Program-made: the position numbers and the translations under genes
Part shown: positions 1-39,110 of the stretch, one piece after another
Layout of the letters: each line of letters begins with the position of its first letter
Numbering within the stretch: the stretch's first letter is position 1
Notes under the pieces: generated by a model
The model's database searches: none
Told to the model about the DNA's origin: nothing
The model's input: only the letters and a program-made list of their open reading frames with translations
Source of the DNA: Ananas comosus
Lineage: Eukaryota > Streptophyta > Magnoliopsida > Poales > Bromeliaceae
NCBI RefSeq assembly: GCF_001540865.1
Contig: NC_033640.1
Span: 7,665,306-7,729,305 of the forward strand
Direction: 5' to 3'
DNA length: 64,000 bases

Positions 1-2405
1 TGCATGATAAGAAAAATTATACCGAACCTCAGACCAGTCGCTTCCCATTCGTACAGGAAACGTTTGATCATCCTCAGTAAGTAAGTTTTCTAAAAAGACG
101 TCAATACGTAGTCATCATGTAAAACAAGATTACACCGAAGATGTAGAATTTATGAGAACACCATATCATTACATTCAGAATACCAAGCCATATACACTTA
201 AAAAAAGCGACATTGATGGTTAATCTTCTACATACCCCGAAAATCAAAAACATCGGTTTTAAACCGGAAGAAAAACGTAATCTTGAAAGATGAAGTAAAA
301 AAGAGAGAATCACCGTATAACTAAAGAGACCATACCGTGTTTAACGTCCCATAAAGAAGCTCTCTTATTATACGAGTGTAAACACTATAAGAATCGACCT
401 CCTAACTACACGACAAGTACCTTTCGTATAAAAACAAAGTGGACCTTAACTCTTTAACGTTCAAAAATACGTTAATTACTGTTAACTTTGGTTTATAATG
501 ACCTAGGACCTAGAATCTATACCGACTACATGTAGTATTTGGAAATGACGACCAACCCAATTTGGAATGTCAAAAGGAGCTCTCAGCGAAATACAGCTAA
601 ACTTGACAGACCTAGTACTGTGAAAAGGAGTAATGTACGAACTTAAGTAGATTTCTGAGAAAGAAAAGAAACAACGAGGGGGAGAACCGTGGAACACTTG
701 TATGAAATTTGACTCAAAAAAGCAACAAGGTAGTACAGGTCAACAGGTCAGGGTAGAGGGGTGAGGGGTAAGGACGGGGAAGAGTTCCACTTACGTAAAA
801 CTAATAACCAGATAGATAACTAGAAGGACAGAACAGGGGAACAGGCGAGGATAGAAAACTACGTAGTCTACTACCAATAATAATAAAAAAAGTACATAAA
901 AAATGGAAAAAATTAGTACAAGAAAAAAATAGTACGAAGGTGTGGATAAAAGGGAGTAAAGAGAAGGAGAACACTCTTTGCTTCTCTTTTCGTTTTTTTC
1001 GTGGACTCTTTTCCTTAAGGAGGGATACTAAAATAAAAAATAAACTGACACGACATGATTGTAATAAGAATACTATAATGAAGCAATTTTCCTGTAGAAA
1101 GAAAAATCATGACTATGCAACAAATGGAGGATATGTAGAATAGTAAATATTGAGACGTCATTTAATTTTGTACTGTAGACATTTTGGGAGAAGAGGTACG
1201 AATCCCCAAAAATCGATTGTCTAACGATCGACGGCGTAAATATCCTTTCATGACATGATTAATTGTGTACTTGCCTCAAGATACATTGAGTATGATAAAA
1301 AAAAGTTACACAAAATAAACAACGTATCGTTCAAGAATGCCGACATGGAACCATTGCTCCTACTTCCTCTAAAACATTACTCAGCGAGTCAAAAGATCTT
1401 AAAGTATAAGACTCATCTCTACTAAAGAAGAGTCAAGTGTTCTGATACGCATACAACGGAAGGGATAAAAGGTTACGAAGTGTACAAACTTAATATATTT
1501 CGAGAGTTATAAATCTGAATGAGTAGTAAAAAAATGTACGGTTTCGTTAAATCCTCTCGTCTAGGTAGTATGATGCAGAAGTTTACTCTTTACAATGGAG
1601 TAATCAAGTAAATACTTTATCGTAAGTATCCGTCACTTAATGTTCTCAGGTACCCTCTACCTATGTAGTAGATCATCTACAGTGTGCAGATTAGAATAGG
1701 AATATCTCACCACAAAGGCCTAAAGACCTCACCGTTTACGGCGACCTCCCGTAATAAACCAGTTTCTTAACTACACCATCAAGCGTTAACTGTGTAGATT
1801 AACGATATCAATCGTGAGACTGTTGTAAAGACGTCTTCTAAGAAGCTTACAAAAAGTGGACCCTTCGACGTAAGGAAACCATTCCTCAAACGATCGTATA
1901 TCGGACAAAACAAACAATTATGCCGACATCAATGACGATTCACAGAAACAAAACGTACGCAATTATATTGAAATTCAACAACAATTTTGTTCAAAGGTAC
2001 ACTAGAATCCAAAATATGTATCGTCACGACGTCTTTTTACCAAACCAATAATCAAGAAAGAAATCAACTACGAAAATTCAAGACTACTGAACTTTTAAAA
2101 ACGAATAATCAAAGGATGTACAAAGTCCGAAGCCTCAAGAGAGACCGAAGTCAAGTTCGGGGTAGTATAACGACGACCTCGACGTAAGGAACGGCGATTC
2201 AAGGATTTAATACTAGAAAGAAAAAAAGGATTGAAAACCGTACTCAAGGTCTGCTGTGGTAGATAATAAGTTCCATTCAGATGAATAAAGTGTTTAAACA
2301 CCAACGATTCGATCTAACCAAACATAACAAAAACTTTGTAGAGTACAAAAAGGAACGAAACGCAAGTAACGTCTACAACAGGTCGTCAACTACCTCGACA
2401 AAATT
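1..2405. CDS. Cyclin-T (P-TEFb cyclin), 3' part, mirrored
   Basis: C-forward, partial: the 5' part lies left of the window. Exons are 1-45 (ends MAWSLVSEG, donor gtaagc), 2128-2273 and 2374-2405, and phases match at both joins. The second exon encodes a stretch containing LQFKPHHIAAGAAFLAAKF, the conserved second-cyclin-fold segment of plant cyclin T. It is followed by WHEFQTTPSIIQDVVQQ and a terminal LMELF before TAA at 2403-2405. Cyclin T pairs with CDK9-type kinases (CDKC in plants) and promotes RNA polymerase II elongation. The first intron is long (about 2.1 kb) and T-rich in the corrected reading. The protein ends soon after the cyclin box, as in short cyclin-T members. The first exon's 5' limit is cut by the window edge. 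Family is fairly sure; subtype is not assigned. Confidence 0.8.
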
Positions 2406-5289
2406 TCTCTCAACGAATGTACAACATACTTTCCAAGCGATCAAGAGAAATTGTTACAAATACCAGTATTATAGTATTATAAAATTCTAGTGTTTGGGAT
2501 GGGACCCAAATCGGTGTTGGAGCCGTATGTACCGTTTAAAGATATAGTCATCGTTTACTACTCGTAAAAAATTATAAAAGTTAAAATGAGAAGGTCAAGA
2601 AAGAAATCTAAAATAGTCGATGCACGTTTACAACTATCATTCACCACAAGGTGATACATAAGAAGGTAATACTTCACCTTGGGCAAACTTTACTTATACG
2701 ACTAACTGACCCAATACCGACCCACATCGAAAATAATCAAATACTTGCGTCTACAGCACTCTAGTCAACTCGTACTACTGACTTTCCCACAAAAAAGAGT
2801 GCACTTTTGAACGAACCGGGACGTTTTACCTTCTAAACATAAAGCTAACTCGTCACTTCAAACTTTAACCTCCGTACCTAGTGTTACACATACCCGACAC
2901 TCATTGTAAGCGCTTGAACGTATGATATGCTTGAATGTTAAAGCAGGACACCTTTCGACTACGACTCAAACGCAAATACCGTGCTCGAGAGCGGTCAATA
3001 CGACTGACGTCAATAAAAAAAATGGTTTGCGCAGGATTCCAGGTTAAATCTACAGCTTGATTCACCATGCCAACATCGATCACGAGACACTCCCAAACCA
3101 GACCACTAACAGCGAACCTTTCAACTCAAAATCATACAACACTGAACACTCCAGAATCGATAGTTCCTGAAGAGTCGTTTCATCTAAGGTGACTGCTCAG
3201 TTAGTTAGGTTTGGACTTATTAATCCTTAATAACTAGCTAAATATATAGATGTCTGTAAAAAGAGTACGAAAAATTGTTTGGTTTATGGTTTTACGACGA
3301 ACTGTTCGTACTCTCCACGACTTGTCGTAACTTTGTAAAACCTCCAAAATACCCTATACAACAACCATAACTTACTATTACGCGCATACCTAACTGACTC
3401 CTCTACTCGTCAAACGTCAACTGGATCTCTTATGGACGTAATGGTTAGATGTACTCCCGGTTCATACTAAACTTAGATTATCATAAATATTTTGTACAAT
3501 TCAAGTTTCAAGTGATGGACTTAAGGTTGTCACCTATGACGATATTAACGAGGTTACTATAACCAACCAAACATTAAGACATACTTTTTGAGACAGTTAA
3601 ACGCAAGTGAACTAAAATACCCTAAATCTTTTCTCCACCTATAGAAAGACTCAAGTGACCACCCAGAGTACAAAATAACGGACCATATAGAAAAAATAAC
3701 CACAAGCTTGAACAAAGTGAAAGAATTGAAACCAAAGGAGAGAGGTTGAATTCCTAAATAGAACATTATAGAACGACTAAACTCGACATTAAGGAAACCG
3801 TGGTTGAACATTATAGATTGCTCTTACAGTAGAACACCTACAAAAACTGTGTAAACTACTAAAGCTAGTTCTCTTAAAACTAAAGTACACAAAATTCTAC
3901 ACAAAAACTAAATACGAAGACTAAAAATCAGTTAAATATCAACATCTTTCCTAGATACCGTTTTACTTACCAACCGGGGGGACAGGAAAACGCTATCACG
4001 TCTAATCAGGGACTTGAAAAGTGATTTTACTAAATCAGGAACTTGAAAGTATATAAAACGTTAATGTAGAATTGGGACAAAAAGTCAGATTCTTTTGAAC
4101 CGAATACGGTGCGACACTACTACGACAAGGTCATTTTACGGAAGAATTTAGGTTGGTGTAGAGGGCCAATAAAATTTTGACCGGTAAAATTAGTATATTA
4201 ACTGGAAAAAGAAAACAAGTAACAGCGGCACACTATTAGAGTACGACCCCACCTTAACACCTTTACCAGTACAATGTCCTTTTACGTGTGCGCATCGTGC
4301 ACCGCATTACTTGCTTGTAGCACAAAGAACTAAAACTTTTGCCCTGAGTTACTACACTAACGCTTTACATCCTTTCCAGTACTTGATTTAGAAGATCACA
4401 CTTCGAAAATACTTGATTTCATAGATCACACTTCGAATCCCTGGTCAATGACATAGTCGTCATTGATTTAGTAGACCATACATACGTCAAAAATCATTAC
4501 ACGTATAAAAGAGACTAAACTACTTGAGATCTGTTACCAGATCAGAGAAGACCCGGAAAGTTGACAATCAAAATATTAGGGGCCATATCTCATTAAACTA
4601 TTCATAAAAAATCCTCAATAACAAAGACTTACTACCGATACTACGACTCCTAACTTACTTGTAAAGACTTCGTTTTTAATAAACTTTTCCGTGTATCTTC
4701 CCAGAAATTCTAGAACTCTCTCTTACCTTACAAGTATAAATTCTTGTAAAATACGAGTAGGACAAAACACGAAGTTAAAAATGACAAATAAATTTTTAAC
4801 TTTACTCAAACACGGCTAATCTGCCGCTTCTAACTCCATACTCTACCATTTTAAATACTTACCTTTTACTCTAGCTCTTAGCCGAATCAAAGTGTGAAAA
4901 TACGTAAACTACCAATTTGTGTGACGAAATTTTACATGATGTAAGTTTACGATAAAACCAAGTTAAAGTATTAGATCTCATATTAAACATGATTAATCTT
5001 TGATTAGTATGCGTAGTGTTCTTATTATATAAACTGAGATTTACTCGAGAATGAGATACAAATTCTTCGACTAATAATTAACTGTGACGGAATTAGTGTG
5101 AACTACGTATCAATTTTTAATAGGTTTATTAAGTTATTCGTTGATAAAAATCTTCACAATTGGTGTTTGTTTGGACCACTTCCTTGAACTTTTTGTTCGA
5201 TACTTGTGGACGTTTTCGTGTAGAGTAACGTCCACGTAACAATAAGGCGTTGAAGACTCTTTTCTTTGTGAGTTTAGAGGTTTTGTTCA
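2406..5289. other. Mirrored intergenic region, cyclin-T to dirigent
   Basis: No exon chain was found in either corrected reading. The first few hundred bases after 2405 are probably cyclin-T 3' UTR. Around 3.9-4.1 kb the C-forward reading resembles repetitive plant intergenic DNA, with paired phrases of the type ttagtccctgaacttt. Two near-identical 30-bp units lie at about 4380-4440. The rest is AT-rich and featureless to me. Confidence 0.5.
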
Positions 5290-5835
5290 AATCACGACGT
5301 GCATCTGTAGCTTGAGCTTCTACGGCAGCGGCCAGAAGCCTAGCTGCCGCATCCAGAACAGCTGCTGGGTCGGCGCGCGGTCGGCCTTGCTGGGCGAGGG
5401 AGGCTGCTGGCGTTTGAGGGCACAGCAGAGCTCGTGGCGCAAGGCCGGCTGGTGGCGGTCGCACGACGGCAACATGAGGGGGGCCTCCTCGTGGTCCAAG
5501 TGGTGGTAGAGATCTCGTTACGGAAGGCAGCTGCGCACGTGCATCTTGGGGACCCGGGACGGCTGCTCGCGACTCGACTACGAGCCCGGGAGGCAGTCGC
5601 CCAGCAGCTGGTGCTGCTGCAGCGGCTTGGGCTCCCTGCAGCAGCAGTAGCGCAAGAAGCCGCTCTCGGGGCGCTGCGCCTGGCGCCTGCCCGCGCCCGG
5701 CGAGTCCCACAGCACGTCCATCTTCACGTCCACGCACTCGGAGCGTAAGAGGCTAAGCGGCCTCAAAAAGTGCCGTTTTTGTACGCCGTTTTCCTTTTCC
5801 TTACGTTTCTAGTCCAACACTTTCCTCCTCCGGTA
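5290..5835. CDS. Dirigent protein, secreted, mirrored
   Basis: R-leftward single exon, ATG at 5835-5833 and TAA at 5292-5290, 181 residues. Dirigent proteins steer stereoselective coupling of phenoxy radicals in lignan and lignin formation in the apoplast. The N-terminus has a hydrophobic signal peptide (residues 1-21, core FAFLFLLPHVFA). Family landmarks follow in order: THLHFYLHDTLSG, TSLGFGDVVVVDDPLTEGP, GRAQGFYVHAS, EYNGSTLAVVGRN (with an N-glycosylation sequon) and GGSGSFRLARGW, then a C-terminal FEFDVYVQH. Length and motif order match the family. The exon is strongly GC-rich against its AT-rich surroundings, typical of monocot intronless genes. A TATA-like stretch (actatata, R-leftward) precedes the start by about 40 bases. 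Because of the mirror error, standard gene finders would instead call spurious GC-rich frames here. Confidence 0.93.
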
Positions 5836-6982
5836 ACACAACACCTCCAGTTCCTTTGTTTTCTCATATATCACAATATCTAGAGAGAAGTGGACGTACA
5901 TTAAAATACCCGTTTAATGTGAAAAACGGGAGGTTGATTCTGCGAACTATAAAATCGAGAGCTTGAAAATCAAAAGAATGTCAAAGGCCGAGCGTGATAC
6001 TCTATGCATTATAAAATCAGGAGTTTATATAACAGAGTTATAATCATTATTAAGTAATTATGAATGAGATTTTTTAACTAAACATACTGAATTAACTTTG
6101 TCAAGTCTTAATTATGAATGAGTTTTTTTAACTAAACATACTGAATTAACTTTGTCAAGTCTTTCAAACTCGTAATTTCATATTATACGGAAAATTAAGC
6201 TCAGTTTTTAATGTTGATTAATTTTACGCTCCTGATTGCACAAGGCGGAGACCATTAAGCTCAGTCTTTAATGTTGCTTAATTTCAAACTCCTGATTCCG
6301 CAGTTAACGGAATAGCCGACTCCTGGTTTTCACATTAAATGGTATTAAAATTCATCTCTTTAATCAATAATTAATCACCTTCAAATTGACAAATGTACCT
6401 CGAAAAAGAACCACTTAATTACTTTCACTGTCGATCCTTATCAAGTTTTCATCATATTACATTGTGAAATTGATGTTGAGTATATTTTATTATATAATTA
6501 ACACCCGATACAACCAAGTTCGAAGTCAACCAATAAAAAATAAAAAAGTAAAAAAAATATAAAATATATAAAAATATAAAAAATAAAATCAAAAACAGCA
6601 TCAAACGAATTAGATATCTCTGGTGAACTGTAACCATACAAATACATATATTTCGCAAAACTAGGAAAGAAAAACCATACAAATACCTAACCGTAAATAA
6701 AAAAAACACGTTCAAATCAGGATGTTAAAATGTTACCACTAAAAAATTCTCTTCTACGTGTTTTTTTTCTTTTTTTCTTTTTTTTTTCTGTGGACTTAAG
6801 TACAACGATAAGAGGAAATTAACATGTTTTGTTTGGTTGTTTACATTAACGTTACCATTAATGTGTGGTTTACATTCATACATTGTGAATTTTGAAAGAG
6901 TATTTTATACAAGTCGTATTTACATTGTACATTTTAGAAGACAGAGACAGAGGAGACCGCGCCGCGGCTGTCTACAACCATA
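5836..6982. other. Mirrored intergenic region, dirigent to ABCG
   Basis: AT-rich DNA between the start of the dirigent gene and the stop of the ABCG gene, both read R-leftward; it should hold the dirigent promoter and the ABCG 3' UTR. Two near-identical direct repeats of about 50 bases lie at 6050-6165 (the tatgaatgag unit), and another pair around 6190-6290. A/T-only low complexity occurs at 6530-6600. No coding signal was seen. Confidence 0.5.
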
Positions 6983-9900
6983 AATACCGTCACCTCTCCA
7001 CTCTGGAAGGACCTGTCGGTCACTTAAGACTCCGACTACAGAAAAGCTGTCGCATCTGTAGAAGGAGACCTTACTACCGAAGAAGTATTCTACAAAGTGG
7101 CAGCGGCGTCGCATCTAACAAGCCTTCTCGCCCCTCCGAGAGAGAGACTTAAAGTCCTGGTCTTTCTTACGTTAGGACATCGTTTTGTCATACTCCTTGT
7201 GTTAACGGTCTAGGTCGGTGAAGCTTACCAGCTAGAAATAAGGCATTTAGGCGAGCTAATACATAAAAGGTCAGTTAAAACCTGACGGCCCGTCGTCCCC
7301 TAGCTTGAGCTCGGGCTAGTTCAGCAAGAACATCGAAGGGACATTTCACCTCTAGTAGTGGTAGCTACTGCAGTAGTAATTCTTGTTTCCTTTGGATTTA
7401 GTACAGCTTCATGTTGGCTGTTCGAATCCATTTTATAGGCTACAGTTCATACTAGGATAGCTTCTAGAAGCATAGCAGCCATGCAGTAAATAAAGCCAAA
7501 GTTAAGTTCTTAACTAACTTCTGTTAGTCTTTTTCTTTTTTTTTCTTTATTTGTTCGAAACCGGTTTAACATGAAGTGTTAGTTTTGTGTTTTAATGCGT
7601 GTATTACCTATATCTTAGATGTCAACTAACCACGATTTGGATACAACGAGTGTACATCCAAACTTTTCAGCCTCTGAAACTTACAGGTCATCAACTTTCT
7701 AACCTTTTCGAATAGAGGACCTGTATTTTTTGTGTTTCAAGCAACTTACATTTTATAATTTTATGGCAAGAGACCATCGAACTCAAAAGTCTCTATTCGT
7801 CAACAAAGCGGTTTCAAGGTGACTTCTAATTTGAACGTAAATGAGCTTGTTTTATCTTTCGGTCGATACAAAAATTCTAATGACCGTGGTATTGCTCATT
7901 AAGAATATGCCTACAAAGCGAGACGCGACTTCTTATCGATTTATGTGCCAGATAAGCAAACATTATAATCAACTTCACCGGCGTGGAGTTTAACATATAC
8001 GTCATATCAAATGAGCTTTTCTTTTTCATATGTGTTATATGTGGTTAAAACTCAAAGGTAGGACACTTTATGCCACGCATTTTGCTACATTTCCTTCGTA
8101 CAACTGTTTAATCTATTCTCATTTGGTCATCCGATTCGTTTAGCGCTTAAAAAATAGTTAGATACATTCTACACCCTCCTCGATGGACGTTACGGGTTCT
8201 GTACATACACTATATGCTTTGTCCCATCGCGGTCTTGCCGAATCCTTCTAGGCCTTCGTTCGCCTTCTTGGGCCGACAGTAGTAGTATTAAGGGACGTTT
8301 CGGTACAACGCCGTATTTGTATAGTGTTAAACCGTTACTTATTCTAAACAAATGATTTGTTATCGAGAGTGAATGTTACTGTGGACGAGGACACTAATAA
8401 GGGTAGTCCTTTAACCCGTGTTCGCTGCGCTACTAGTAGTACTCCGAGAGATGGTGGCTCTAAGGCGGTATCTCCGAATTACATTTCATCCGTATCACAA
8501 GCTTTGGCCCCGCTTTGAAGTGGTACCCCATTCGATATCTAGGTCAATTTTAGCTGTGACACTCGTTCTTTCCCTCACTCCTATCCTTTAACCTATTATA
8601 CATGTGACGTTGTGGCATTACGGGCAAGACGGAGAGCGCCCACTTGTGAAAGTAGAGAAGCTACTTCCTGCCCTTCGGAGGATATCTGTACTTCCAGTAC
8701 TTGGGCCTGTGCTTCGGAGGCGTTCTACGAGATCGGTTATACCGGCACATCGAGCAGGGGTGCAGCATTATCTACGAGGGCTGCCTGTGGCGCTCGTAAT
8801 ACATATACTAGTAGGAATCGGTCATCATTGGCATCAGAGAGCTGTACAAGTGTTTACTAGAGGAACAATCACAGGAGTCGACAAAGTTGGTTGAACGAAC
8901 CGAAGGAAATAGACTGAGACGTCATTCGGGAAGGACGTTCCATTACTCATCGCCTTTGTATTTAGTTTCAAACCAATTACGAAAGTAAAAAGTATTCGTT
9001 ATGTAGTTCACACGTTGTTAAACGTTAAGATATGTTGAAAGAGATAGCTAAGCGAGAAAGAAACTCAACCAGCACACTAAGCTCTCGTGACCGCTAACTA
9101 CGAATGACAGAATCTATAGAGAACTTCGGCAAAGGCTCGATTGTAGCGTATCAGGCTTGAGAACATGAAGAGATATTCGTAGCGGAATTACAGACTCCAA
9201 GACTTGAAGCTGTCTCCCAGACTTTCTCTAAGACGGAGGAAATGTCTTCGTTCTAATTTTTCTTTTCTTTTCTTTTCTTTTCTCTGTTTGGTTACAGTAA
9301 AAAAAACAGCATTTTATGATGGAAGTTCAACTTACGCTAATAAGATATTTTGTATTGATCTTTAGTGTCTTGTATGACGTGCGTCAAAGTTGCTAGGAAA
9401 GTCCCAGCGTCAGTGCTCCAGCTTCAGTCACAACTACGTCGCTTCCTTTACCAGTCTGCCCAAGGAAGACGATCCCGTCCCCTTAGGTCGAAGGCGTTTC
9501 TTGACATGTTTTCTGCTTTAATATACAATCCTATATGAATAGGATTGTGGTGCAATAGATTTTCTAGTTAAACGTAACGGGGTAAGTGTGCGTGCCAGCT
9601 GTACGTACAACCCCGAATCTAACCGACGCTATGGTATAATGTCTTTTTCTAATAAAGACTGTCCTATGTCGTATCCTTACCAGAGTTATACGGTCTATTT
9701 TAACACGGTGTAAGGTCTTTAATTTAGTATACGTTGTCGTCTAATGGAACCAACGGACGAACCGAAGAGGCTTTATCTGTCAGAGAGGCGGCCTGTTCTC
9801 CTTGTTCAGCAGCTTCTCGCGTTTCTGAAGCGACGACCCGACCACCTGCCTCCTCTATTGCCAGAACAACGGCAGTTCGCGGTAGACGAAATCGCAGACC

Positions 9901-11905
9901 TACTGCTTCTTCCGGCTGCGCGACAGCTCCGGCGACCACCCGAGCAGGTTCTTCTCGTCAGCCCCGGCGCAGTCTTAGAGGTCGCGCTACGACTCGGCGA
10001 AGAAGAGCGGCGGCGACTAGGGGGCGTCCACGGTTAACGGCTACCCTGCCAGCCGCGTCAGAAGGTCCGGGTCGAGGAGATAACAGGGGAGATGGCGCGC
10101 TGCGTGAAGAAGGAACGAGTACGACCTGCCGTCGGAGTCTTCACGGCTCATCCACTACCAAAGCGCGTGGCAGTCGCAGGGCTCGTCGTGTAAAAGAACA
10201 CAATGTATACGGACATTGTATGTTACTGTCAGTAAATGTCGTACTTGACTTGTTGTCTAACGTCTTAACTTAGGTAATATGGACAGTCTTAACGTCTTAA
10301 CCTTCGTCTCGTTTACAGTCTTATTATTTGTCAACTGATTTTGTCGACTTAGTTCTTTAGAGTATGTAGGTTCATTTCATTACCTCTGTTTAATTTTTAA
10401 TCAACTTAAACAGGACAATCAAGGTAATGTCGTTTAGTGACTTGTACTTCTTGTAATTAATGGAATTCCTAATATTGTAAAAGATGTGGTAAATGGTGTT
10501 AGAATATTTTTATACCTTAACCCAGTCATTTTCTTTTGTTCGTTGGATTTAATCATCTTGAGATTTCACCTTTTCAATCTCGTTTCTCATTGTTTAATTC
10601 TAACCTTCGTATAGAATGATAACTTCTCTGGGACGTAAAAACAATGTTTAAGGGGTAGACAAGAAAACTTTGATTAAGTCAGTCTTTACACTTCGATATA
10701 AAGCTTGGACTCTTGAGCCTACAGTTAGTAGTTTAAGAATCAGTTGACACAATCCATACTAGTCATTAGTTTATCTTAGAAAAATCATGGTTTAATTCTA
10801 TTTCATTGATTTTACTTCGATCCCAATATTCCCTCTATATAAAGAAACAAACAATATTTTTTTTTTTCTTTTTCTTTTTTCTTCTTTCTTTATCTTTTAA
10901 CCGTTGTATGGTGTTGGGGTATTAGGTTGGAGGAAAAAGAAGGTAACTCCTCGTGGGAGGGTGAGTTGTGTTGTAACCAAGGTTCGGAGGGATGTATATA
11001 TACATATATTAAGTTTGTACTCTCTGGTTTTACATCTCTTTAAAATCGTGTTTTACCTTCAGGGTTGTAGATAGTTACATTGTCTTTATTTCGACGTCCT
11101 CTCTCTTCCTAGAAGGTCAAAAGCGGTGCACCTGCTAAAGATGTTAAATAAACCTTTGAATATTATATTATTATTTATTTATTTATTTATTTATTTTGAC
11201 CTCTCACTGTTCTAAGACAAAGAGGATTGAATAATAAAACAAAAAGAGTGACACACAGACATTTATCCTTATGTAATGTCCACTCAACCCGGTCGAGGAC
11301 AATCCTCGAACAAATAAACAAACTCAACTTTTTCATTCGGACAATAGTCGAACAAATAATTTGACTCACTAGGCTCAAGCTTAGTTAAAGCTCAGCTTAT
11401 GCTCGACCGAGTGCTTATTACTCGATATAACTGACAGCCTAGCAACCGCGATTAGTGATTAGAGTTTTTGAACTCGCCAGTCTTTATTTGTTAGTTAAGT
11501 GAATTTCCTATATCTTTGTCACGGGTGTACAAAGCTAACACTGATCTGGATTGTTCGTGGTTCGGTAAAGCTTGTACTGAACCATCTCGGTCTGAAACGC
11601 AGTAAAGCTTGCATTAAGCCCGGTTAGACCGGAGAGCGGTGTACTGTCTTACAACCTGGATTTTAATTAAATGTATATGTCAAAGGCCCTCGTAGTGGTC
11701 GCTCCCTCAGCTCCTCCCACCTGAACGGCCTCGGCCTCCCGGGGTACTACCGGTTCTAGGCCGGCCCGTTCCGCATCGGCCACTCGGGAACTTAGTCGAA
11801 GGAGCCGCCGGCAGACGGCGGTGGCGGTGGCGGCGGCATCAACCCGTCGTGGCGTCACTCTAGAAGGGTGTGGTTCATCCGCCGGCTGCGGCGGAGGGAG
11901 CGGTA
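6983..11905. CDS. ABC transporter G half-transporter, ABCG11/12/15 clade, mirrored
   Basis: R-leftward, complete, eight exons: 11905-11698, 10990-10911, 10211-9747, 9502-9377, 9238-9107, 8933-8376, 8293-8186 and 7339-6983. Together they give 2034 nt (677 residues) with GT-AG introns and consistent phases. The nucleotide-binding domain comes first: Walker A GPSGSGKST (residues 55-63), signature ISGGEKKR (161-168), Walker B LLFLDEP (181-187) and switch histidine H219. A linker follows, then the transmembrane domain (about 300-630) and a basic tail ending KRHQPQNSLAVQEGLTSPLP, typical of the wax/cutin-exporting clade that includes Arabidopsis ABCG12/CER5. Such half-transporters dimerise in the plasma membrane and export cuticular lipids. 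A (GA)n tract at 11941-11967 sits in the leader or promoter. Family and domain order are certain; the substrate is inferred from the clade. Confidence 0.95.

Positions 11906-12196: not shown

Positions 12197-12198
<2 letters not shown>

Positions 12199-12244
<46 letters not shown>
12199..12244. repeat. (TA)n microsatellite, left flank of MITE
   Basis: An uninterrupted AT dinucleotide run directly abutting the terminal repeat of the 12245-12788 element. Its continuation at 12787-12826 on the other side shows the element sits within a TA tract. Confidence 0.95.
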
Positions 12245-12247
<3 letters not shown>

Positions 12248-12783
12248 ACGCCGATGATACGATAGCCTTCGTGCTTCAGAAGGCACGAAGGTCGAGCAAA
12301 AGCTACAACGCTGAAAGCTTAGCAGCTAGCCGAGGCAATTTAAAGTAGATCTCATAAACCTCATGGATTTTTTATTTAAAATAATAAAAAGCTATAGTAA
12401 ATGGATCACTAGCTTACTCGAGTTTTAGTTGTTTAAAGTTATCAGCATCACTCGGCAAACGTTCAAATTGCCACATCTTTATAGGTTTAATGCACTTTAA
12501 AACTATCTTTTAAGAAATATGATATATTTTGTTCTAGTTATAGAAACTAAATTTTAAAATTACAGTATAATAATGTAAAACATTCTAAAAATAAAAGTCG
12601 GCAACTAAAACTCGGGGAAGTAAGTGATCCGTTTACTATAGCATTTTAGTATTTTAAATAAAAGATCCATGAAGTTTATAAGATCTAGTTCAAATTGCCT
12701 TGGCTAGTTGCTAAGTTTTCAGCGTTGTAGCTTTTGTTCGACCTTCGTGCCTTCCGAGGCACGAAGGCCATCGTATCATCGGA

Positions 12784-12788
<5 letters not shown>
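12245..12788. mobile_element. Terminal-inverted-repeat MITE inside (TA)n, mirrored copy
   Basis: About 540 bases flanked on both sides by (TA)n. The ends form a long inverted repeat: the left end (from 12245, gtcacgccgatgatacgata...) pairs with the right end (...tatcatcggagtgat to 12788) over roughly 100 bases. After in-place complementation the left end reads cagtgcggctactatgctat and runs on to phrases such as gatcggctccgttaaattt, matching the normal-orientation copies at 49084-49620 and 60797-61330. Non-autonomous, no coding capacity. The preference for TA tracts suggests a TA target site. Superfamily not assigned. Confidence 0.85.
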
Positions 12789-12831
<43 letters not shown>

Positions 12832-26427: not shown

Positions 26428-26800
26428 CACATTCACCTCACTACCTTGAGTTCAAGGTAGTGAAGGCAATAAACAAAACCACATTCACTTTTTATATAAC
26501 ATTGAGTTCATTGCAATCTTGAGGTGAAGTGGATGAGAGCTGAAGGAGAAGATTTCACAACTTGAACTGAAGGTGGTGTGAGTTGGAGGAGATTTTTTAA
26601 TTAATTTGTCATTTTGGATTTGAGATGAAGAAAATATTACCCAATCTTAATGGAATAAATATTATTTAATCCTAATAGAAATTTATTATTATTTTTTAAA
26701 TTAATATATTATCCAATTTTAAATATCACCATTTAATTATTGATATAAATCCTCTATTACCCTAGGTGAATGAATGTAGTTTTGTTTGTTGCCTTGAGTT
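26428..26800. mobile_element. TIR element with aaacaaaac ends, mirrored
   Basis: Left end gcaaacaaaaccacattcac and right end gaatgaatgtagttttgttt form imperfect inverted repeats. Related end fragments recur just inside (26472) and just outside (26825-26910), so this is a small cluster of nested copies. A diverged relative lies at about 18165-18300. Non-coding, AT-rich interior. Confidence 0.65.
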
Positions 26801-27249
26801 TTTTGATTCAAATGGTCGTGGTCAATATAGTTTTGTTTGTTTTGTTTGTCTTCTTCATTAACTTAAATTGAAAGTCTGACATGCTCAATGCAGTTTTGTT
26901 TGTTGTTTTTTATTAGTATGAAGTCCTTTTGAGTTTATGGTGATGTGAATTGAACGCAACCTAGATGTCTAAGCAGTTAGGTTTGCGGGGAAATTCGAAG
27001 ATATCGTCAACAAAGCGTTGTTAATCAGAGTAGGTCATGTTAAATGTAGTTTGTCTGGGATTTAGGAACAACACGTTTAGGTGTATAGTCGCTAGAATCT
27101 TAGACTCACTTCCTAGTTAGACCAAAGAGTAGTTTCGTGCTACGATCGTTGTTTTCGGGATCTTATCGCGGCATCGAAGTCTAAATGTCCTAGCTAGTAC
27201 GCTAGGATGGTTCAGTTGCCCCTTCCACGCTAGCAAAGTTTCCTTCGCC

Positions 27250-27254
<5 letters not shown>

Positions 27255-27284: not shown

Positions 27285-27286
<2 letters not shown>

Positions 27287-28060: not shown

Positions 28061-29495
28061 TGTCATTTAAAAAAAAAGTTTTTATATAAAAATATTTAAA
28101 CTTTTTTTATCCCGCAAAGATAAAAAACGTTAAAAAAAACTACTTTTTATTTTTAAGTTTCTTAGCCGTCAGGTGTTCTAGGGTACTCTCGAGCACCTGT
28201 CGCACTCTCCTCCAGTGGGTAATAGATTATTTAACAATATATTATAAATGAATCTTTATTTATGTACATATCGTAATGTAAGATCATAACGTATAATATA
28301 ATATAATATAATATAATCAAATAAATTAAAAATCTTTTTTATAATCAACATGTAAAAGTCTTACCCATATACTATATATAAAGTGAGTAGATCATGTTTT
28401 TTTTAAATGTCTAAGATAGCTATACTGATCATTTTTCTATAAAAGTAGTATCTTACTTACTCTATATGTAGTATGTGAGGGAAAACTACATACACATCGT
28501 AACGAATTTCTATTAAATCAGTTAATTAGTAAAAGTAATTGCGGCATTAAGAGAGACTGTTATTAGTCTTTTCTTTTTATTCTTCACTCATAAATGTCAT
28601 TAAAATAACACAAAATCATTTTTATTCATTTTTTTTTGAACTGTTTCTCTTATATTTTAATTAAATCCCGATTAACGTATGTCGAGGAACATTTGTATAA
28701 CTTATTGTTTATATAGAGATATTTCAAATAAAAAAATAGAAATAAGCACGTTTTAAAGATTAATAAAATTTATATAAGGACAACAATCCTAACCAATGTT
28801 TTTATATCAATTAATATTTTGTTAATGGATAAGACCAATCACTTATTCAATTTAACTAGAAAAATGAAGAAAACATAATAATCCATTTCATGGAAAGACC
28901 TTCCTATAAAAATGTATAAAGATTGCCAACCCTGAAAGCTTTCTATATGAATATTCCAGTTTTTACAATAAAATGAATGGACGACATTTTTTAATTTGTC
29001 TCTTACAAATCAAGTACTAACTTTATCTTTATTTTTTATCTTAATCTAACGAAACTTTATCTTTTACCTTACTGCTTAGTAGATTTTTACAAACCAAATA
29101 ATAACCTTACTTTTAGTTTTATTTTTAAATTTTGAAAAATTTTTCTCAAAACTAATTCTCTCTCATTTCACTACTTACCTCTACTCCTTCCACAACCACT
29201 TTTTCTTAAAATTTTTCAAGTAAAACTTTACCTAGTTAGGCTCTAAGTTTCGGTATAACCCGGTATTTATCTAAACTGGTAAAAGTAAGTTTTACCTTAC
29301 TCTTAGTTTTAAGCTGAGGATATTTTGTTTGCTGTTGATAACTTTAATTACTTAATGCAAAGCTAAGGTACCAGATTTTATCTACTTGGTATATATAAAC
29401 GTCACGAGATTACCATCATTTAATCTATTTATTTATACTTATATTTACTTTTCGATTAAAAATATTCTTATCTAAACAATAGGCTATAAAATATA
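28061..29495. other. Mirrored AT-rich intergenic DNA
   Basis: No coding signal. 28140-28215 is a short GC-richer island, possibly a transposon relic. 28580-28990 is similar, in the same text direction, to 36500-36860 (shared cgattaacgtatgt-like core and gtttatat...ggcaatc block), so both are copies of one repeat family. Confidence 0.5.
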
Positions 29496-30017
29496 TCACG
29501 AGATCTCGATCCGACCATATGATAACCGCACGATGATTCAACAAAAGTTACTACAGCGAAGGTTTAGTTGCTAGCCGAGGCAATCTGAACTAGTGATAAT
29601 TTTCATAAACTTTTGATTTAAAGTATTAAAAAGCCATAGTAAATAAATAGTTTGCTTATCAGATTTTTACTTGCTGACTTTTATTTTTAAAGTATTTTTT
29701 TTCTACTATTTTCTAAAATTAAATTCTAGTCATCGAGATTTATCAATTTTCTTAAAAAATATTTTTAAAATAGTCTAAACTTAATAAAATATGCCAATTT
29801 AAGTATTTACGCAGTGTAGATAGTAATTTTAATAGTTAAAACTCAGGAAAACCAGTGATCGGTTTATTATAGCTTTTTAATATTTTAAATTAAAAATTTA
29901 TAAAAATTATTATATCTAATTTAGATTATTTCTTCTAACAGCTAAACTCTCGGTGTAGCAATTTTTATTGAATTATCGTGCCTCCGAAAACACGATGGTT
30001 ACCATGCGGTCGAATCA
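29496..30017. mobile_element. Full-length copy of the (TA)-flanked MITE family, mirrored
   Basis: About 520 bases with diverged inverted ends. In-place complementation of the left arm gives gatcggctccgttagacttg, nearly identical to the normal-orientation copy at 49.15 kb, which proves that this position is still inside the mirrored segment. It lies about 130 bases before the start codon of the Y14 gene and so forms part of its promoter region. Confidence 0.8.
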
Positions 30018-30146
30018 AGAAATGTAGAGAGAACGGAAGCTTTTGGATTTTCTCTCTTGGTGGGTCCTTCCCCTTTTTTTTAAAAAAAAAAAACTAGAGA
30101 AAGAGGCGCCTCTCCCGTGCTCGCTTCCTCTGCTCCCGCTCCCCGC

Positions 30147-33100
30147 TACCGCTGCTTGCGCCTGCACCTCCACCACCTGAAGCTCGGGCTGCTGCTGCTA
30201 GAGTACCTGCTCCTGCGGCGGCGGCCGCTAGGATGAGGCCGACGCCGCCGACGCCGCCGCGGCGGAATGGGCTCCGATGCGAGGCGGTAGTGGCCGCCGC
30301 TGGGGGGGTTCTTCTGCTTCCCGGCGCCTAAGGCGCTGCTCCCGCGGCGGCGGCGGCGGCGGCGGCGGCGGCTGGCGTCGAGGGCGGAGCTGAGGGCGCT
30401 GAAGCTGAGTGAGCGGGGGCTCCCGCCGCCGCCGCCTGGGCCGGGGGTCGCTACATACACCGAGAAGGGGGAAGGAAGAGCAGACTAAGTAAGAGTAGCA
30501 CAGAAACCTAGCCACTTTAATCCCAAATTCGCAAAAGTACCGGAAGTGCCTCTCCGCGTAGAGAGACCCTCCATGGACCCTCCGCTTCTCCCCAATTTGT
30601 GAAGTATAACTACACGATTTTGATAAAGACTCGGACAAGGATAGTCTATTTTGGCACACTAAGAAAAGTAAACGGTAAATCATCCAATTTAAAGTTAATA
30701 AATAGTCAAGGCAATGGAAAGAGCACTTATACGTGTAGTCTCACTCACAATTAAGGCGATGCCCCGAGAAATTAGAAAACCCATTGTGCGTCATCCCGCT
30801 GCGCCTTGAAACCTTTCTCACATCAAAAGAAACAGTTTTGCATTATCAACCACGAAACGTCTCCTTTAATGTTGTTAGGATCACACGAGTATCTTTATCT
30901 GCCCAATAACTACGACGGTGCCAGCAAAACACACTTTTATACCTTCTACGCATAACTCAAAGAGATTTTCAATACCACCAAAAAGCTCCTTTTACCTTCT
31001 CTCAAACGGGAACAGAATGAAATATTACTTAAACCGATAAATAAAGTACTCCTTTTATCTTACGAAGTTCTACTACACGGTATTGTAATTTTACCCTAAT
31101 TGGAACATCTTAAAAAACTACAAGTAGAATTCTGATCTTTTGTAGTATGACCAAACCATAGGGCTTTACCGTATGGCCGAAGAAAGACCTTAACCTTCTT
31201 AATAACGGTAGAAAAAACGGTAACCGTCGAACCCAAATTTCAACAGACAACTAATTATGAGTTTCAAAGACATAAAGAAGAGTGTACACCAACTGGACAA
31301 ACTCATTGGACGAATCAACTCAATGCGATGACCTAAAACGATAAAATTCAAGTATCGACCTCTCACTAAATCAAACTTAGATGCTCGAAGATCTAACAAG
31401 ACAAGAAGCTATATAACGATGTTAACAACACACGTCGACGTCTTTTCGAAAAACCTATTTTAGAGAAACAGCAAATACACGGTAATTATAAAAGAAAACC
31501 GAAGTTTTAAGAAGACGATATAAAGGAAATTAAAACATCTAGAGAACGTGACCAACTATACTACACGAAAAAATAACTTGAGAGAAACGATAGAACAATA
31601 GACGACAATTTCTTTTTGATAAACGAGAAAAAAAATTTCATCGTAGACACTTCACATCTTTTTCTTTTCGAGTATTTCCAGTATACCACAGCTGACAGAT
31701 GAGTATTAACAAGTAGATACGCTGTAGAGGTGAAATTCAAAGAATTTAGCGTCTCTTATCATAAGAGAAATAGAACATAAATGTAAACAGACGTAGAATA
31801 CTAATCGAATGTAGAAAGATGGTTAATTCGTTTGATCACTTGGATAACACCGAGGTAACAGATCGAGAAATACGATAAAGAATAAGAACATACATTAAAA
31901 GAAGAATAAGAATATACATAAAAAAAGGTTTATTAAGGATATCGGTAGCTCCCTACCTATTATGACCAATGACCTCATGTACTTCTCCGTGTTCTTCTAC
32001 TAGAGGTGTTACGAAAAGCACTTAAACCCGTCCACTTCTTGAACGTAGATTTAAACCTGGCGGCTTGACCTAAACAATTCCATTTATTTGTTAAAGACGA
32101 GGAGCATAAAATATTCTACATTTACCACGAAAAACTATGTGCCGACTGTAGCCTAAAGTTTACACTGTTCTACGAAACCAAGTTTTCAGTAATAACTGCT
32201 TGTATTTTTGACACTCTGAATAGATATATACTTCCTGTCCTTTTATTACATTTATCTGAAGAAAAAGGTAACCTTAGTAAAACACCGTATATGATCAAAT
32301 AAAATATATTGTGGGTGAACGTAGAAAAAACTTTATTACTATATAAGATACCTAATTTATAAATCTCTTTTGAATTTTGAAACATACTTCGGTGAAAGAA
32401 GTCAAATGAAAAAAAAAAAAAAAAAAAAAAAAATTTTATCAAGTAACGTCTTTTAACAAGATCTCGATCAAGTAAGTGAGAGACTGTTTTTTTTTTTTAG
32501 ACATGTTTGAAAATATAATAACAGGGTTCAATTTCCTAGTTTTCTGGAGATAACTATTAATTTAATGAGATCTAAATCAAGCTAGAAATAACGACCGAAA
32601 ACTAGTCTTACAACTTGAAATATAGAACACCTAAACCTTACCCTAGTTCCAAAACCCCGAGAGTCAATTAGACTAACAATGCAATGAACTATACCAAGTA
32701 CAACTCGAACCTGAACTCAAGACTAAAAATATCGTCATGAGCACTCAAGAGTTACCTTTGTTGTTTAAAATTGGATAGTTGTGGTGAAGGACATCGAGAC
32801 TTTTATTGAAGACAAGTTTATGATAAGTTGCCAAACTTGAGAACCAGTTTTAGCTTCGCAAAGTGAACTTTAATAGGAGTTACGAACTTATAGTGTTCAA
32901 AGTCAACAAAGTCGCAAAAACCGTCAAGTTTTAAAAGGGAAAATACCAGAACTGTTAAAAATACAGAAATTACCATACATAAAACCACTAAAATCGAAAA
33001 GTAGTCGATCAAAGTCAGTTAAGGTTTACTTCAAACTATATAACCAACTTTAAGTAATTTTTTGTAAAAGATGATACCTCTTAAAACTCGTCTTTGTCTA

Positions 33101-34122
33101 CGACGATCTTTTCTAACTCGTTTTGTGAATGTTTACCATTAAAATACCGGCCATCTATTATGACATCTTTAAAATATAGACAAAAACGCATCTATATATC
33201 AGGGAATAATTAGAATGACGAAAAAACACCGACAATTTATAATTAGGAAAGAATACAGTATCCCTATACGAGAGTAACTCATACTGTCGAAACTCCTCCG
33301 TGTCCGACGTTATTTACGTGACCTACCTTGACTCGAGGAGTGTGTCTAGTAATTACAATTGACCCGTAAATCACAACCTGGATAGTTCGCGTCTTTACGC
33401 TCCTCCTCCAATCAAATGGATTTGATTGAGAAGTCAATAACTGATTTGGAGACTATACAACGGTACACTAATCTGGTGGAAAAACTCTACCAACGTCTTT
33501 CTAGTAGAAAATGTGTACCTGTATGAAAACGGTGCGATAGTCGACTGGAAAACTAACTTTATACGGTAGAAGTCATATTAACGGTTATGAAGGTTGAAAT
33601 TCGGCGGTCTTAATTGTGTCACAAAAATTAGGAATAATAATAAAAAAATAAAAAATTATAATCAACTTATTTTAGTAGACACAGAACCACGAAGCAACTT
33701 GAAATCGGTATCAAACCAACATCGGTTTGACTCTCGACTTCACACACGAGTGGCGATTATGTAACGAGAATTGTTCTACTATCGTATTAATTTCGAAGCT
33801 AAAAAGTTAAGAATAGTAGCAGTAGTGATAGGGTTACGACAATAAATACATAATATTCCATTTTAATATACATCAAGAGTTGTTTGTTATCCTATAAAGT
33901 TTGTTTTTGGGTGACATAGGAAAGAGGTATAATTAAGTCGGTGCTCAAATAAACAATATAAAGAAAAATATTTACGTTAGTAAATTAACACAGGAGTGGC
34001 GTCTACGATACTTTTAATATAACCACCATAGTAAATGTAAAGGGACTGAATCATTGTGTAAAGAGAAGCTGTCTAGTGGTGCGCGAGTAGCTAGTTCCTC
34101 GGGAGGCTCCTCCTCTATAACT
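30147..34122. CDS. Y14: Y14/RBM8A, exon junction complex RNA-binding protein, mirrored
   Basis: C-forward, complete. Exons are 30147-30453, 31944-32080, 33263-33408 and 34074-34122, 639 nt, 212 residues, with GT-AG introns and correct phases. Y14 pairs with MAGO and is deposited upstream of spliced junctions, acting in mRNA export, localisation and nonsense-mediated decay. The acidic N-terminus begins MATNADVEVVDFEPDDDDL, then KKTKGRGFRDE and SRDFDSLAPEG, both conserved in plant Y14. The single RRM spans about 107-185, with RNP2-like WIILVTGV and RNP1 KGYALIEY (148-155). The C-terminus is an RS-type tail ending RSRSPPRRRY. Runs of Ala and Gly in exon 1 (GCC repeats at about 30350-30375) make the N-terminus slightly longer than the Arabidopsis homologue. 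It is convergent with the TSJT1-like gene, with 914 bases between stop codons. Confidence 0.96.
32408..32434. repeat. Poly(A) homopolymer in Y14 intron 2
   Basis: About 27 A with no interruption, in the second intron of the mirrored Y14 gene (poly(T) after strand correction of the coding sense). It may be a polypyrimidine stretch or a retroposon tail. Confidence 0.8.
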
Positions 34123-35036
34123 GTCCAACAATAGTGGCATTTGTCTTTACTTTGAGATTTGTAAACGCTAGGTTCTAAACTCTTAGACCAACAAAAGGTC
34201 TCCTCTTACTAAACCTTAGACTCTAAACCCTTAAACGAACCAACACAATCGCAGCAAATTAAAGGAACATTGAACAAACGGAAGCAGCTTTAGAAGAACA
34301 CAACCTATAGAAATTAGTTGTACACCTAAATACTTGAATAAAACATAGCCACTAATCCTCTTGACGATGAAAAACTAGAAAGTTCAAAGATGCTGTAATA
34401 TGGATCACTGCCACACTAACACGGAGTAGTGTATCTATAAGAGACGAACGTAATTAGAGCACCTAAGCAGAAATTAAAGACTCAGTATAGAACTTCACTT
34501 TCACGGTGGATTCTCTTGTCCCTTGGTTTTTTGAATGACGAAATGTTAATATAAACAATAGTTTAGGTGTGATCCCCGAAAAAGATTACATTCTTACTCT
34601 AATTCGAAAAGAGAAGTGAAACCATACACAAGGTAACCTCTAGTAGGAATTGTTAACAGTGTTGGGAAGAGAAAGTGTAATCTCACCTATTTAAGGTTGT
34701 GTTAACAGTGTTGGGTACCTAAGGTTTTAAGAGTACCTTTAAAGTAGACTGTTGATTTCGAGGTCGTAAATAATCTAAATGTACCCATTCGGTACTACTA
34801 ATTTTTCGTTGTCTCGTGTGTTTGATTCTAATAAACAGTTTAAACAAGAGACTTGAGTTTGTTTTTGATTTTCGCCTCTAGCCGCGCCAATTATGTTTCT
34901 TGTGGTTTCTCTTTCGTTTGAATAACTTCTTGTCATGACGACGATGTGTCCTTCGTGTTTTCTACGTTGAAGATACATGTACTGATGGTGAACGTACAGG
35001 TACTCGTCTCTACTCGTCATTGAATTAAAGGGAAGA

Positions 35037-36242
35037 GATCTAACAACGACGTTGTTTACGAGGAAGGTGGACGTACACCTCATTTGTAACTTACGACACT
35101 CTTTAAACAGCCAGGCTTCTTAAGTAGTGGCTGGCTCGTAAAGCCACGCTAGCCACCGTAAATATCAAAGACTAATTGAAGCGGTTAGTGTGAGGTAAGA
35201 TACTCGAACTCTAAACCGAGATGAGAACAAGCTTTAAAAATGCTTTATTTTGCTGATTTAAGCGGCTTTAAATGGAACTTTCACCGGGGTGTATAGAGAA
35301 GAAGCAGACGCCCCTAGCGCCACTGAGACACGAACCCCAAGAGTTTCGAAGAGTTCGGAGGTACTCTCAAACTCATCTTTGTAGGACACTAAGTTTGGAG
35401 TTGTATAAATGTGACTCTTTATCTGATTCTCTATCCCTTTAATATGAACTTAATTTTGTCAATGTCATTAAAAAACAAAACAATTTTTTTTTTTTTCCTT
35501 GATCTGTTCAATCCTTTAAACTAAACCGAGGTGTGTACATTGAACTAGAGTAAACAAACGTTTGAATATGATACCAAAGTATGTGTATATTATTATAACA
35601 CTATACTATTCAACTTTATTTTTTATATGATGTCCTTTGTTCTTTCTTTTAACTATTTGTTATTCAATAAAAAAGAAAAAAGAAAAAATGGAACCCCCTT
35701 AACACGTTCACTAAACGGTGTACTAGGAAACTCGTTCAGGTGTAGTAGTCTTTTTCGTTGTGTGGGTAGACGTCACTAAGGGGTCTTATCTCCCTAGAAG
35801 GGTAAACCTAGGATAATTAACTAACTAACTTGTAGTTATTTTCATCGGGTTTTTTTCTCCTTCTCTCTCTCTCCTAGATTTTAAGTTTTATAATCTTATT
35901 TGAATATATCTAAGATATAAAAACGGGGTTCTGTGGCTTTTCTTAGCTCTTTCTGTCTTCTTATATTGTTCTCTCTCCGAGTGCCTCCGCTGCTCCTCCC
36001 TCCTCCACCTCGCCAGCTTCTCGTGCTTCCGCTTCAGCGGCCTCTCCACGCGCTCGTACTTCCTCCCCCCCATACCGCGGGCCAGTGCGTCGCGGAACAT
36101 CCGGAGCTACTGGTCGTGGCGGAGCAGGCGGCGGCGGCGGCGGGGCGGGAAGCTGCTGTCGGGCATGACGACGGTGTCCGAGGGGTCCAACAGGTCGTAG
36201 GGGAGCTTGTGCGTCTTATAGAGGAGGAAGCGGCGTTTGGAG
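35037..36242. CDS. TSJT1-like / DUF3700 aluminium-induced family protein, 5'-truncated, mirrored
   Basis: R-leftward exons: 36242-35984, 35811-35691, 35384-35275 and 35069-35037 (TAG). GT-AG borders and phases agree throughout. The product belongs to the stem-specific TSJT1 / wali7 group with a glutamine-amidotransferase-like (GATase_7, DUF3700) fold, often induced by stress or auxin; the biochemical role is not established. Visible landmarks are FAAKEEIFCVFEGMLDNLG, EAYKALRDRAPYPPSFM, GKIPLFWGITADGCVAFSDD, CGKSLAQFPQG, GGLRSFENPKHRV and EEEICGATFKVEG. The family normally starts with an exon of about 70 residues beginning MLAVF. The first recovered exon has an acceptor and is in phase 2, so that exon must exist, but I find it in neither reading up to 39 kb. 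It was probably lost or displaced at the orientation switch. Confidence 0.9.
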
Positions 36243-39110
36243 GACGTAGGTACGTAACGTAACGCACGTAACGTGTCTCAGTCTTTTGCCAGCTTATGCT
36301 AGTCTACTTATGTAATGTTCCTTAGTTTTTTGCCAGCTTATGCTAGTCTATTGTTATTTAAACATAAGAATATTGTAAGTGTGTGTGTGATATAGTTAAT
36401 TATGAAATGTACATCTGTGGTTAAGTTATGTTTACAAGTTTGTTATGAACTAAAATAATATTATTAATTAGTTTTACTTAAATTTAATCTAAAAATTACT
36501 ACCTGTCAAAAATGTAATAAGTGAATTTTAACTTCTTTGATATATCAAAGTATTAATAATATGTTTATTTGTTGCCTTTTTTTTAGATTTTAAATTAATA
36601 ATTTTCCTAATTAACGTATGTTCAGAGATGTTGTTATTATTTAATATTTTTATAAGAATGTTTTAAGTTGAGAATATACAACAAGAACATTTTTAGAGTT
36701 ATAAAAGTTTATATGGGGATGGCAATCTTAGGCAATCTTTTTTAATTAATTGGTATCCATTTTATGAATTGGGATCAATTAATTACTCTACTTAACTGGA
36801 AATTGGAGAAAAGTTAATTACAACCCTAAAAACTTCCTTGTATAAACACTACCGTTTTTTCAGTAAAATGAATATTTTATTTGTCACAAAATTGCTATTG
36901 TTTAGTGCCTCTGTATAAACTTTTATAATTCTAAAAATATTTTTGTTGTGTATTTTCAATTTGAAATATCCCTCTACAAACATTAAATGATATAAACAAA
37001 CCTGGATATACTTTAACTCGGGATGAAGTTAGTAACATTTGTAAAATCGAATAAAAACTGCAAACGAAGTAATTAATGCTTCACGAAAAACGTTGTGGTT
37101 CGTTAAATGCTGGTGTTGACATCATGTAGGTGAGGTGACCTCTAATGTGCACAGTGCGTAGGTTCGTTGCAGGGCAGCGACAAAGGGTGGTTTGCTTGCT
37201 ACCTTTTTTTTTTCTTTTTTTGACCCAAACACCACACCTATTCTTGCTCCCCTTAGGCGCCAGGTACCTCGGTGCACTAATACAGAGTTAGCATGGGTAA
37301 AAACCACCTTACTACCCTCCGCTTCAATAAGGGACGTGGTCCACATAGGCATGTTAATTACGCGGCGTTAATAAATAAAACTATTCAATATAAAGATTGT
37401 ATTTAAAAAAAAAAATTTTTTTCATCAGAAATTGAGATGATCTCTAATTGACTATTAATTATAATGGGCTCTTTGAAAAAAAATTTTAAAAAAAAACTAT
37501 TACTCCCAAGCTCAAAGAGTCGAGAATTTATCATTGAGATTTATTATTTATTAAATATTACAAATATATATATAAGAAAATTAAAAAAGGATTTTTTAAT
37601 TTATTAATGTTAATTTATTTTACAGCTATGTTGTTTTTGCCATATATTGCTGTGAAAATTTACAGCCATGTCCAGTTTTTTTTCACGACGATCGATTGAA
37701 TGGCTGTGAAAAATTTTCATAACGATATATACTCCAACGATATCTATCCAGGCGGAATTATAAACCGTGTGTGAGGAGGTTGCTGTACACCGCCTCTCTA
37801 TGCACCATTAACATCGTGAAATGCCAGGGACGCTCTAGGAGCGTCGATTTGAGGTCGGCGGTATTTGGATAGAGCAGTCGACGCCGCCGCCTCCTCCTCT
37901 TCCTCTCTATTACTAGCTAGAAAGAAAAAAGAAAAGAAAAAATAAACATTAGCCCGACTCACCCGACCCACACCAACCGACTCATCTCTTTGAAAAATAA
38001 AAACTAACCTAACTTGAAATATAAATCTAAAATCATCTAAAAATTTTTAAATAACCGTATTTATCCTGTGAATATATTTTCACAGGTGTGAATATATTTT
38101 CACAGGGTTTTTATATAAGGATATTATATTAAGATAACATCGCTACCAGAGGATCCCAACTCTCATCTGCCAACCAACTTATCATATTAAATTGTTTACT
38201 TTTACTAGTTTTTCTATTTAGATTATCACTTTTTGAGGTAGCTATCATGGATTGAGACTATGATAGTTATCATATTATCCGCCTGAGGGAGAGAGAGATA
38301 ATTTGTTGAATAATAGATCGGTCATTCGTTTACTAGGTAATAGAGACAGAGATATATATAATTTTATATATAATTTCTTAAATAATAGATTAGTCATTCA
38401 CTCACCAGGTAAAGTTAAGTAGTGATAGGTTATTACCATATCTCCTGGGGATTATTTAATTTAAGGTTAAATAAATCCCAGGCCAGGTACCACGTGGCCC
38501 ACGTAGGGACAAAAGGTGTGACAACCACAGTTTTCTCCACTCGAAAGTACGAAAACTGAGAACACCGGAACACAATTAAATAAATGGAATAGTTTTGAAA
38601 AAAAATAATTTATAAAATTTTCAAATGGTTGGTTAGTAATATAGACCTCACATTCTACATGTAGGAGATATTTTTTTTTTATATATCTATTTATTATATA
38701 TTACATATAGGAGATATTCTTTATATATATATTTATTATAAAAAATTTTTTATATATATATTCACTACGATAAGAATGTGACAAGTACCCGCATTTTAAA
38801 TGTAAATGTTTTGAAGAACAGTAAATATAATTAGGTGAACAGAATAATAACATAAAAAAAAGAGGTTTCCTTAATATACCCGCGAACTAAAGTTTCTACA
38901 TTCTACATATGCATCGTAAAAAGTATAGTCTACGTATACAATATGGAAAATAGAAAATAGAAAATAAAAAAAAAAAAAAAAACTCTCTCTCTCTCTCTCT
39001 CTCAGGCCCTCACCCAGTCAGGCAGTCACCCTAGCTCACATTTTTTGCAATTATTTTGTATTTTAAACTATTTGACATATTGCATCAAATTGTAGGTAAT
39101 GTTCTATAAA
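36243..39110. other. Zone containing the orientation switch
   Basis: No gene. Up to about 36860 a repeat related to 28580-28990 indicates the text is still mirrored. 37120-37360 (some GC, ACGT-type motifs) and 37760-37900 (hairpin gacgctctaggagcgtc, GC-rich) read plausibly either way. A palindromic repeat cctgtgaatatattttcaca lies at 38060-38105 and a diverged direct repeat of about 60 bases at 38295-38410. By 39130 the text is normal. The breakpoint could not be placed to the base. Confidence 0.5.
38981..39003 (+). repeat. (CT)n microsatellite preceded by A tract
   Basis: A short A homopolymer followed by about 20 bases of CT repeat, close to the point where normal text becomes recognisable. 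Confidence 0.8.

Follow-up and report, generated by a model that had tools for sequence, protein, structure and literature searches.

A block of wrong strand polarity in a 64-kb window of pineapple genome sequence, most likely left by a half-done reverse complement

The window analyzed here is a stretch of 64,000 nucleotides of pineapple (Ananas comosus) sequence, positions 7,665,306 to 7,729,305 of contig NC_033640.1 (assembly GCF_001540865.1). Its left part, from position 1 to about 38,982, resembles pineapple DNA only once every base is complemented in place, which is the same as reversing the text without complementing it; the right part holds a gene that is readable as written. Three largely independent lines of test were applied, namely composition, repeats and genes, and the polarity of bases 1-5,292 was judged from composition alone. 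The block and the genes of the window are the following, where "of the complement" refers to the block after complementing in place.

1-38,982, no strand: wrong-polarity block, delimited by composition, repeats and genes; the position of its right end is a likely one, and the block may reach left of the window
5,293-5,835, minus strand of the complement: gene for a dirigent-like protein, 181 codons when started at the ATG selected, in an open frame at 5,293-5,874 (PF03018, E = 1.2e-52)
6,983-11,905, minus strand of the complement: gene of an ABCG half-transporter in eight exons (PF01061 and PF00005; ABCG-family PDB members matched)
21,328-21,534, minus strand of the complement: single exon-sized match to the last part of a dual-specificity phosphatase (DSPc) domain (PF00782, E = 1.4e-12)
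25,339-26,196, minus strand of the complement: gene of the SNARE Sec20, 286 codons in a single exon without interruption (matches in Pfam and to pineapple protein P0001)
30,147-34,122, plus strand of the complement: Y14 (RBM8A) gene of 212 codons in four exons (RRM_1 and RBM8A matches)
35,037-36,242, minus strand of the complement: TSJT1-like DUF3700 gene, exons 2-5 (pineapple P0121)
47,789-59,362, minus strand: TOPLESS-related gene (pineapple TPR3, P0241), readable as written

When the 30 longest open reading frames (ORFs) of 1-38,982 as written were compared with Pfam, both strands included, none of them matched, in line with the preliminary description of this DNA, which had called both strands noise. 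After complementing, 4 of the 10 longest ORFs match (Sec20, two ABC-transporter pieces and dirigent), as do 8 of 10 hand-picked ORFs, which add a second ABC piece, a dual-specificity phosphatase, an RRM and DUF3700. ORFs of at least 150 codons number 3 in the block as written and 10 once it is complemented. The right part behaves in the opposite manner, its ORFs of at least 100 codons falling from 9 as written to 1 when complemented, and its TOPLESS-related gene is complete in the text as written, with all 1,146 residues of pineapple P0241 covered. No Rfam family or tRNA was found in the window as written, the complement not having been scanned for these.

Complementing the block and searching again gave the strong protein matches that a polarity error would lead one to expect, with E-values down to 3.4e-169 and identities to pineapple proteins of up to 97-100%. 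In Sec20, 286 of 286 residues align at 97% identity to Ananas comosus P0001, the next relatives (oil palm and Typha) standing at 75-76%. An identity of 97% suggests that P0001 derives from a different assembly than the window. Exons 2-4 of TSJT1 are 100% identical to Ananas comosus P0121 over 165 residues; the junctions of exons 2-5, positioned by the same protein, are GT-AG, and the frame closes with a stop. The first intron of this gene heads toward the polarity switch, and the stretch concerned (36,243-38,982 of the complement) may be hard to assemble or may hold a long, repeat-filled first intron. A further pineapple gene model, P0122 (194 residues), likewise lacks TSJT1 exon 1 and begins at the same intronic MHGC.

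For Y14 and the ABCG transporter, exons were joined between hand-chosen anchors with only GT-AG introns permitted, so that GT-AG is present by construction; in-frame joins of this kind exist for all ten introns of the two genes, which does not by itself establish the true sites. Such joining reproduces the four-exon, 212-codon Y14 described earlier, and residues 54-211 of the 212 align to RBM8A (5xjc_w) with E = 9.5e-45, as a Y14-type RRM with conserved flanks. The "perfect" 677-codon ABCG transporter in eight GT-AG exons fared less well: the eight exons do join without a stop, but the chosen splices give 670 codons, 5 of the 7 joins offer 2-7 options, and the figure of 677 was not reproduced. 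Similarly, of seven genes said to be concealed in this part, six were identified, one of them (DSPc) by its single exon-sized match, and the seventh was not. At least five genes are hidden from ordinary searches by the wrong polarity.

Repeats allow polarity to be tested with no gene model or outside sequence. The window was compared with itself, all against all, by blastn, and repeat pairs were taken at E ≤ 1e-6 and also at E ≤ 1e-4. Under the stricter cut-off, each of the 14 pairs lying on the same side of the switch matches as written, and each of the 11 pairs lying across it matches only with one side complemented; at E ≤ 1e-4 there are 18 same-side and 12 cross-switch pairs, with zero exceptions. 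These pairs are not all independent, as one palindromic family supplies 8 of the 14 same-side and 10 of the 11 cross-switch pairs. The cross-switch pairs represent two families (10 and 1 pairs) at E ≤ 1e-6, and a third family appears at E ≤ 1e-4. In the best cross pair, 78% of 646 bases agree after complementing (E = 2e-148). The repeats that bear most directly on the switch are as follows.

12,199-12,831, no strand: flipped copy of the palindromic repeat, matching 49,038-49,664 only once complemented
49,038-49,664, no strand: palindromic repeat copy in normal polarity, the counterpart of 12,199-12,831
38,144-38,236, no strand: rightmost of the repeats assigned to the flipped state, matching 63,545-63,638 only when complemented (75% over 96 bases)
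39,471-39,938, no strand: leftmost repeat placed in normal polarity, matching the complement of 19,988-20,501 (69% over 516 bases)

The block resembles a natural inversion in that the relation of a segment to its flank changes at what may be a sharp point, and one might ask whether an inversion, a transposition, a template switch or parallel-strand copying could have made it. An inversion yields the reverse complement, with genes readable on the other strand, whereas here 0 of the 30 longest as-written ORFs match Pfam; likewise, every repeat pair across the point needs one side complemented, and the unaltered text gives no match for any of them on either strand. Because the two strands of DNA are antiparallel, no known recombination, inversion, transposition or replication yields a complement without reversal, and we know of no biological process that complements DNA without reversing it. 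No support for a natural rearrangement was found, and we consider it exceedingly improbable.

The palindromic family has four copies in the 64 kb, at 12,199-12,831, 29,528-30,001, 49,038-49,664 and 60,746-61,350. Three of the four are bounded on both sides by (TA)n runs of 22-46 bases, and we presume a likeness to the rice Micron-type miniature inverted-repeat transposable elements, which sit in (TA)n. The sole ambiguous base of the window is a single N at 61,263, inside a repeat copy. A tandem duplication of about 600 bases, with two copies 81% identical, was also seen at 62,333-63,486.

Plant nuclear DNA is usually poor in CpG but not in GpC, and the right part of the window conforms to this. 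The left block shows this bias inverted, CpG being high and GpC low. Its CpG observed/expected ratio over 1-38,982 is 1.17 as written and 0.79 when complemented, against 0.69 in the rest of the window, and its GpC ratio is 0.79 as written and 1.17 when complemented, against 1.18 in the rest. The six-mer spectra of 1-37,100 and 37,101-64,000 correlate at 0.918 with the former complemented and at 0.850 as written, and k of 2 to 5 orders the two states alike; as a control, two pieces of the right part give a like spectral contrast when one of them is deliberately complemented. Iterative labelling of 1-kb blocks, seeded by CpG and GpC alone, marks as flipped 33 of the first 37 blocks and as normal 24 of the last 25. 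On a finer scale, with each 250-base block held out of training and the two window-end blocks unscored, the restored polarity is favored in 222 of 254 blocks (132 of 154 on the left, 89 of 99 on the right, and the block of the likely switch).

The flipped state extends farther right than the end at about 37,100 given in the preliminary description, which falls some 1.9 kb short, since the repeat at 38,144-38,236 is still flipped. The sequence 36,577-36,818 matches 28,644-28,879 as written and pairs with 36,914-37,057 as an inverted repeat, and therefore the flipped state reaches at least 37,057. With 38,144-38,236 still flipped and 39,471-39,938 normal, the switch must lie between them.

38,237-39,470, no strand: interval containing the polarity switch, bounded by repeat polarity, with no N or gap inside

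Within this interval, the composition change-point falls at 38,940 (k = 4 and 5) or 38,939 (k = 7), the 95% ranges spanning as much as 3 kb. At 38,982/38,983, an A17 run abuts (CT)10 as written, and restoring the polarity turns the two into one continuous T17(CT)10 tract. This is the only place in the window where, as written, a purine homopolymer abuts a pyrimidine dinucleotide run; the other abutments of a homopolymer with a GA or CT run (n = 4, of which a single tract holds two) are all purine-purine or pyrimidine-pyrimidine. From these few cases, 38,982/38,983 is the likely site of the switch.

All testable genes and repeats from 5,293 to 38,236 are in the wrong polarity, and all from 39,471 onward are in the right one; for 1-5,292, composition likewise indicates the wrong polarity. 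The wrong polarity of the left block is confirmed as an observation, and the claim that it is a strand-polarity error from data handling is upheld by genes, repeats and composition alike. Bases 1-38,982 are, in our judgment, probably wrong in polarity through a reverse complement of one contig that was only half carried out before joining.

Several observations weigh against this reading of one uniformly flipped block joined to a normal neighbor. Among the 1-kb blocks, those starting at 5,001, 26,001, 27,001 and 30,001 look normal, and the one at 41,001 looks flipped. Thirty-two of the 254 250-base blocks disfavor the restored polarity, most strongly 26,501 (-9.7) and then 7,251 (-9.5). Such blocks look like noise, because failure rates are similar on both sides and because block 7,251 falls largely inside an ABCG exon that is certainly flipped. 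The change-point is loose, two of the five model orders placing it elsewhere (39,564 for k = 3; 37,396 for k = 6), and as the optimum shifts with model order between 37,396 and 39,564, the bounds of the switch were set by repeat polarity. The join lacks the N or gap that scaffolding often leaves. TSJT1 exon 1 was not found in the window, in either part or in either polarity, which is evidence against the two parts being direct neighbors. Lastly, the longest contigs given for the pineapple relatives differ in length, at 16.78 Mb for Sec20, 7.98 Mb for TSJT1 and 10.79 Mb for TPR3.

From 26,501 to 27,000, two adjoining 250-base blocks favor the written polarity by composition although flipped genes flank them, and this stretch could be noise or a small island of normal polarity at about 26.5-27.0 kb.

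Could the left block instead be ordinary gene-poor or degenerate DNA whose complement contains gene-like frames by chance? The 17 ORFs of at least 100 codons that it has as written, and the 32 of 254 blocks preferring the other polarity, lend this idea a weak argument. Chance would nevertheless have to produce matches of 286 and 165 residues to pineapple proteins at 97-100% identity, with E-values down to 3.4e-169, as well as TSJT1 introns that are GT-AG at positions dictated by the pineapple protein. The Sec20 and TSJT1 matches together with the polarity of the repeats refute it, and we regard its probability as vanishingly small.

How a half-done reverse complement might have come about can be pictured as follows. 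A script meant to reverse-complement one contig would do half the operation, either reversing without complementing or complementing without reversing, during scaffolding, merging or manual re-orientation, and the contig would then be joined to the next; the switch would coincide with a contig end inside the T/CT low-complexity tract. The two forms of the bug would differ in what they imply for the neighborhood. If the contig had only been reversed, the stored contig would be the reverse complement of its right placement, and the restored left part and the right part would be neighbors. If it had only been complemented, the left contig would have been meant to be turned round, and the two parts would not be neighbors. 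The evidence on whether the two parts are true neighbors conflicts, the continuous T17(CT)10 tract favoring adjacency. Sec20 and TSJT1 differ in listed contig though only 9 kb separates them in the flipped block, so that either the block or the reference contigs would be chimeric. The mismatch among three contigs may reflect misassembly of the reference or further chimerism and is not decisive on adjacency; chimeric regions are described in the F153 v7 pineapple chromosomes (PMC8774480). Palindromes from missed adapters in PacBio reads were also considered as a source of the block and dropped, for they would give reverse complements.

The error may also lie outside the public record, the block having been complemented during the cutting, conversion or preparation of the window, whether accidentally or as a control planted on purpose. 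The restored junction, a continuous T17(CT)10 tract without N, fits intact DNA complemented in place. On the other hand, an arbitrary cut rarely falls in a low-complexity tract, whereas contigs often end in such sequence, and with exon 1 of TSJT1 missing, the two parts would seem to be something other than a single unbroken sequence. An error in preparation is judged unlikely, and the half-done reverse complement of a contig is preferred. It is possible, although we are inclined to doubt it, that such an error is systematic, with one scaffolding or merging step having flipped many minus-strand contigs in this assembly and similar blocks lying unnoticed in others.

The nearest known counterpart is the mis-oriented contig, which shares with the present block a wrong placement in scaffolding, the switch here probably lying in low-complexity sequence. 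Reverse-complementing, as happens to a mis-oriented contig, leaves genes readable; here half of the operation was performed, and the genes vanish from searches. Orientation and chimera errors that were manually corrected have been described in pineapple assemblies (PMC8774480), the passages concerned containing no polarity error. The same transformation of the text is used deliberately elsewhere, in a negative control in which reads were reversed "without complementing them" (PMC3242753), whereas here it occurs within sequence presented as genomic. Among the open-licence papers listed, none was seen to describe such a wrong-polarity block in an assembly, which is a weak negative.

The polarity of the left block is an artefact of data handling and carries no new biology; its value is that of a data-quality case with a simple and general detector. 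To six-frame searches, read mappers and repeat maskers, a text is either right or reverse-complemented, and never the product of half the operation. A wrong-polarity block therefore silently loses its genes and poses as novel or non-coding sequence, and it would inflate the counts of missing genes and of orphan DNA. The comparison of CpG with GpC, together with shared repeats that match only once complemented, detects it with neither annotation nor reference and is applicable to all public assemblies. If the error proved systematic, entire tracts of a crop-related genome would hold genes invisible to six-frame search, and the similar blocks in other assemblies would pose as gene-free, CpG-rich dark matter.

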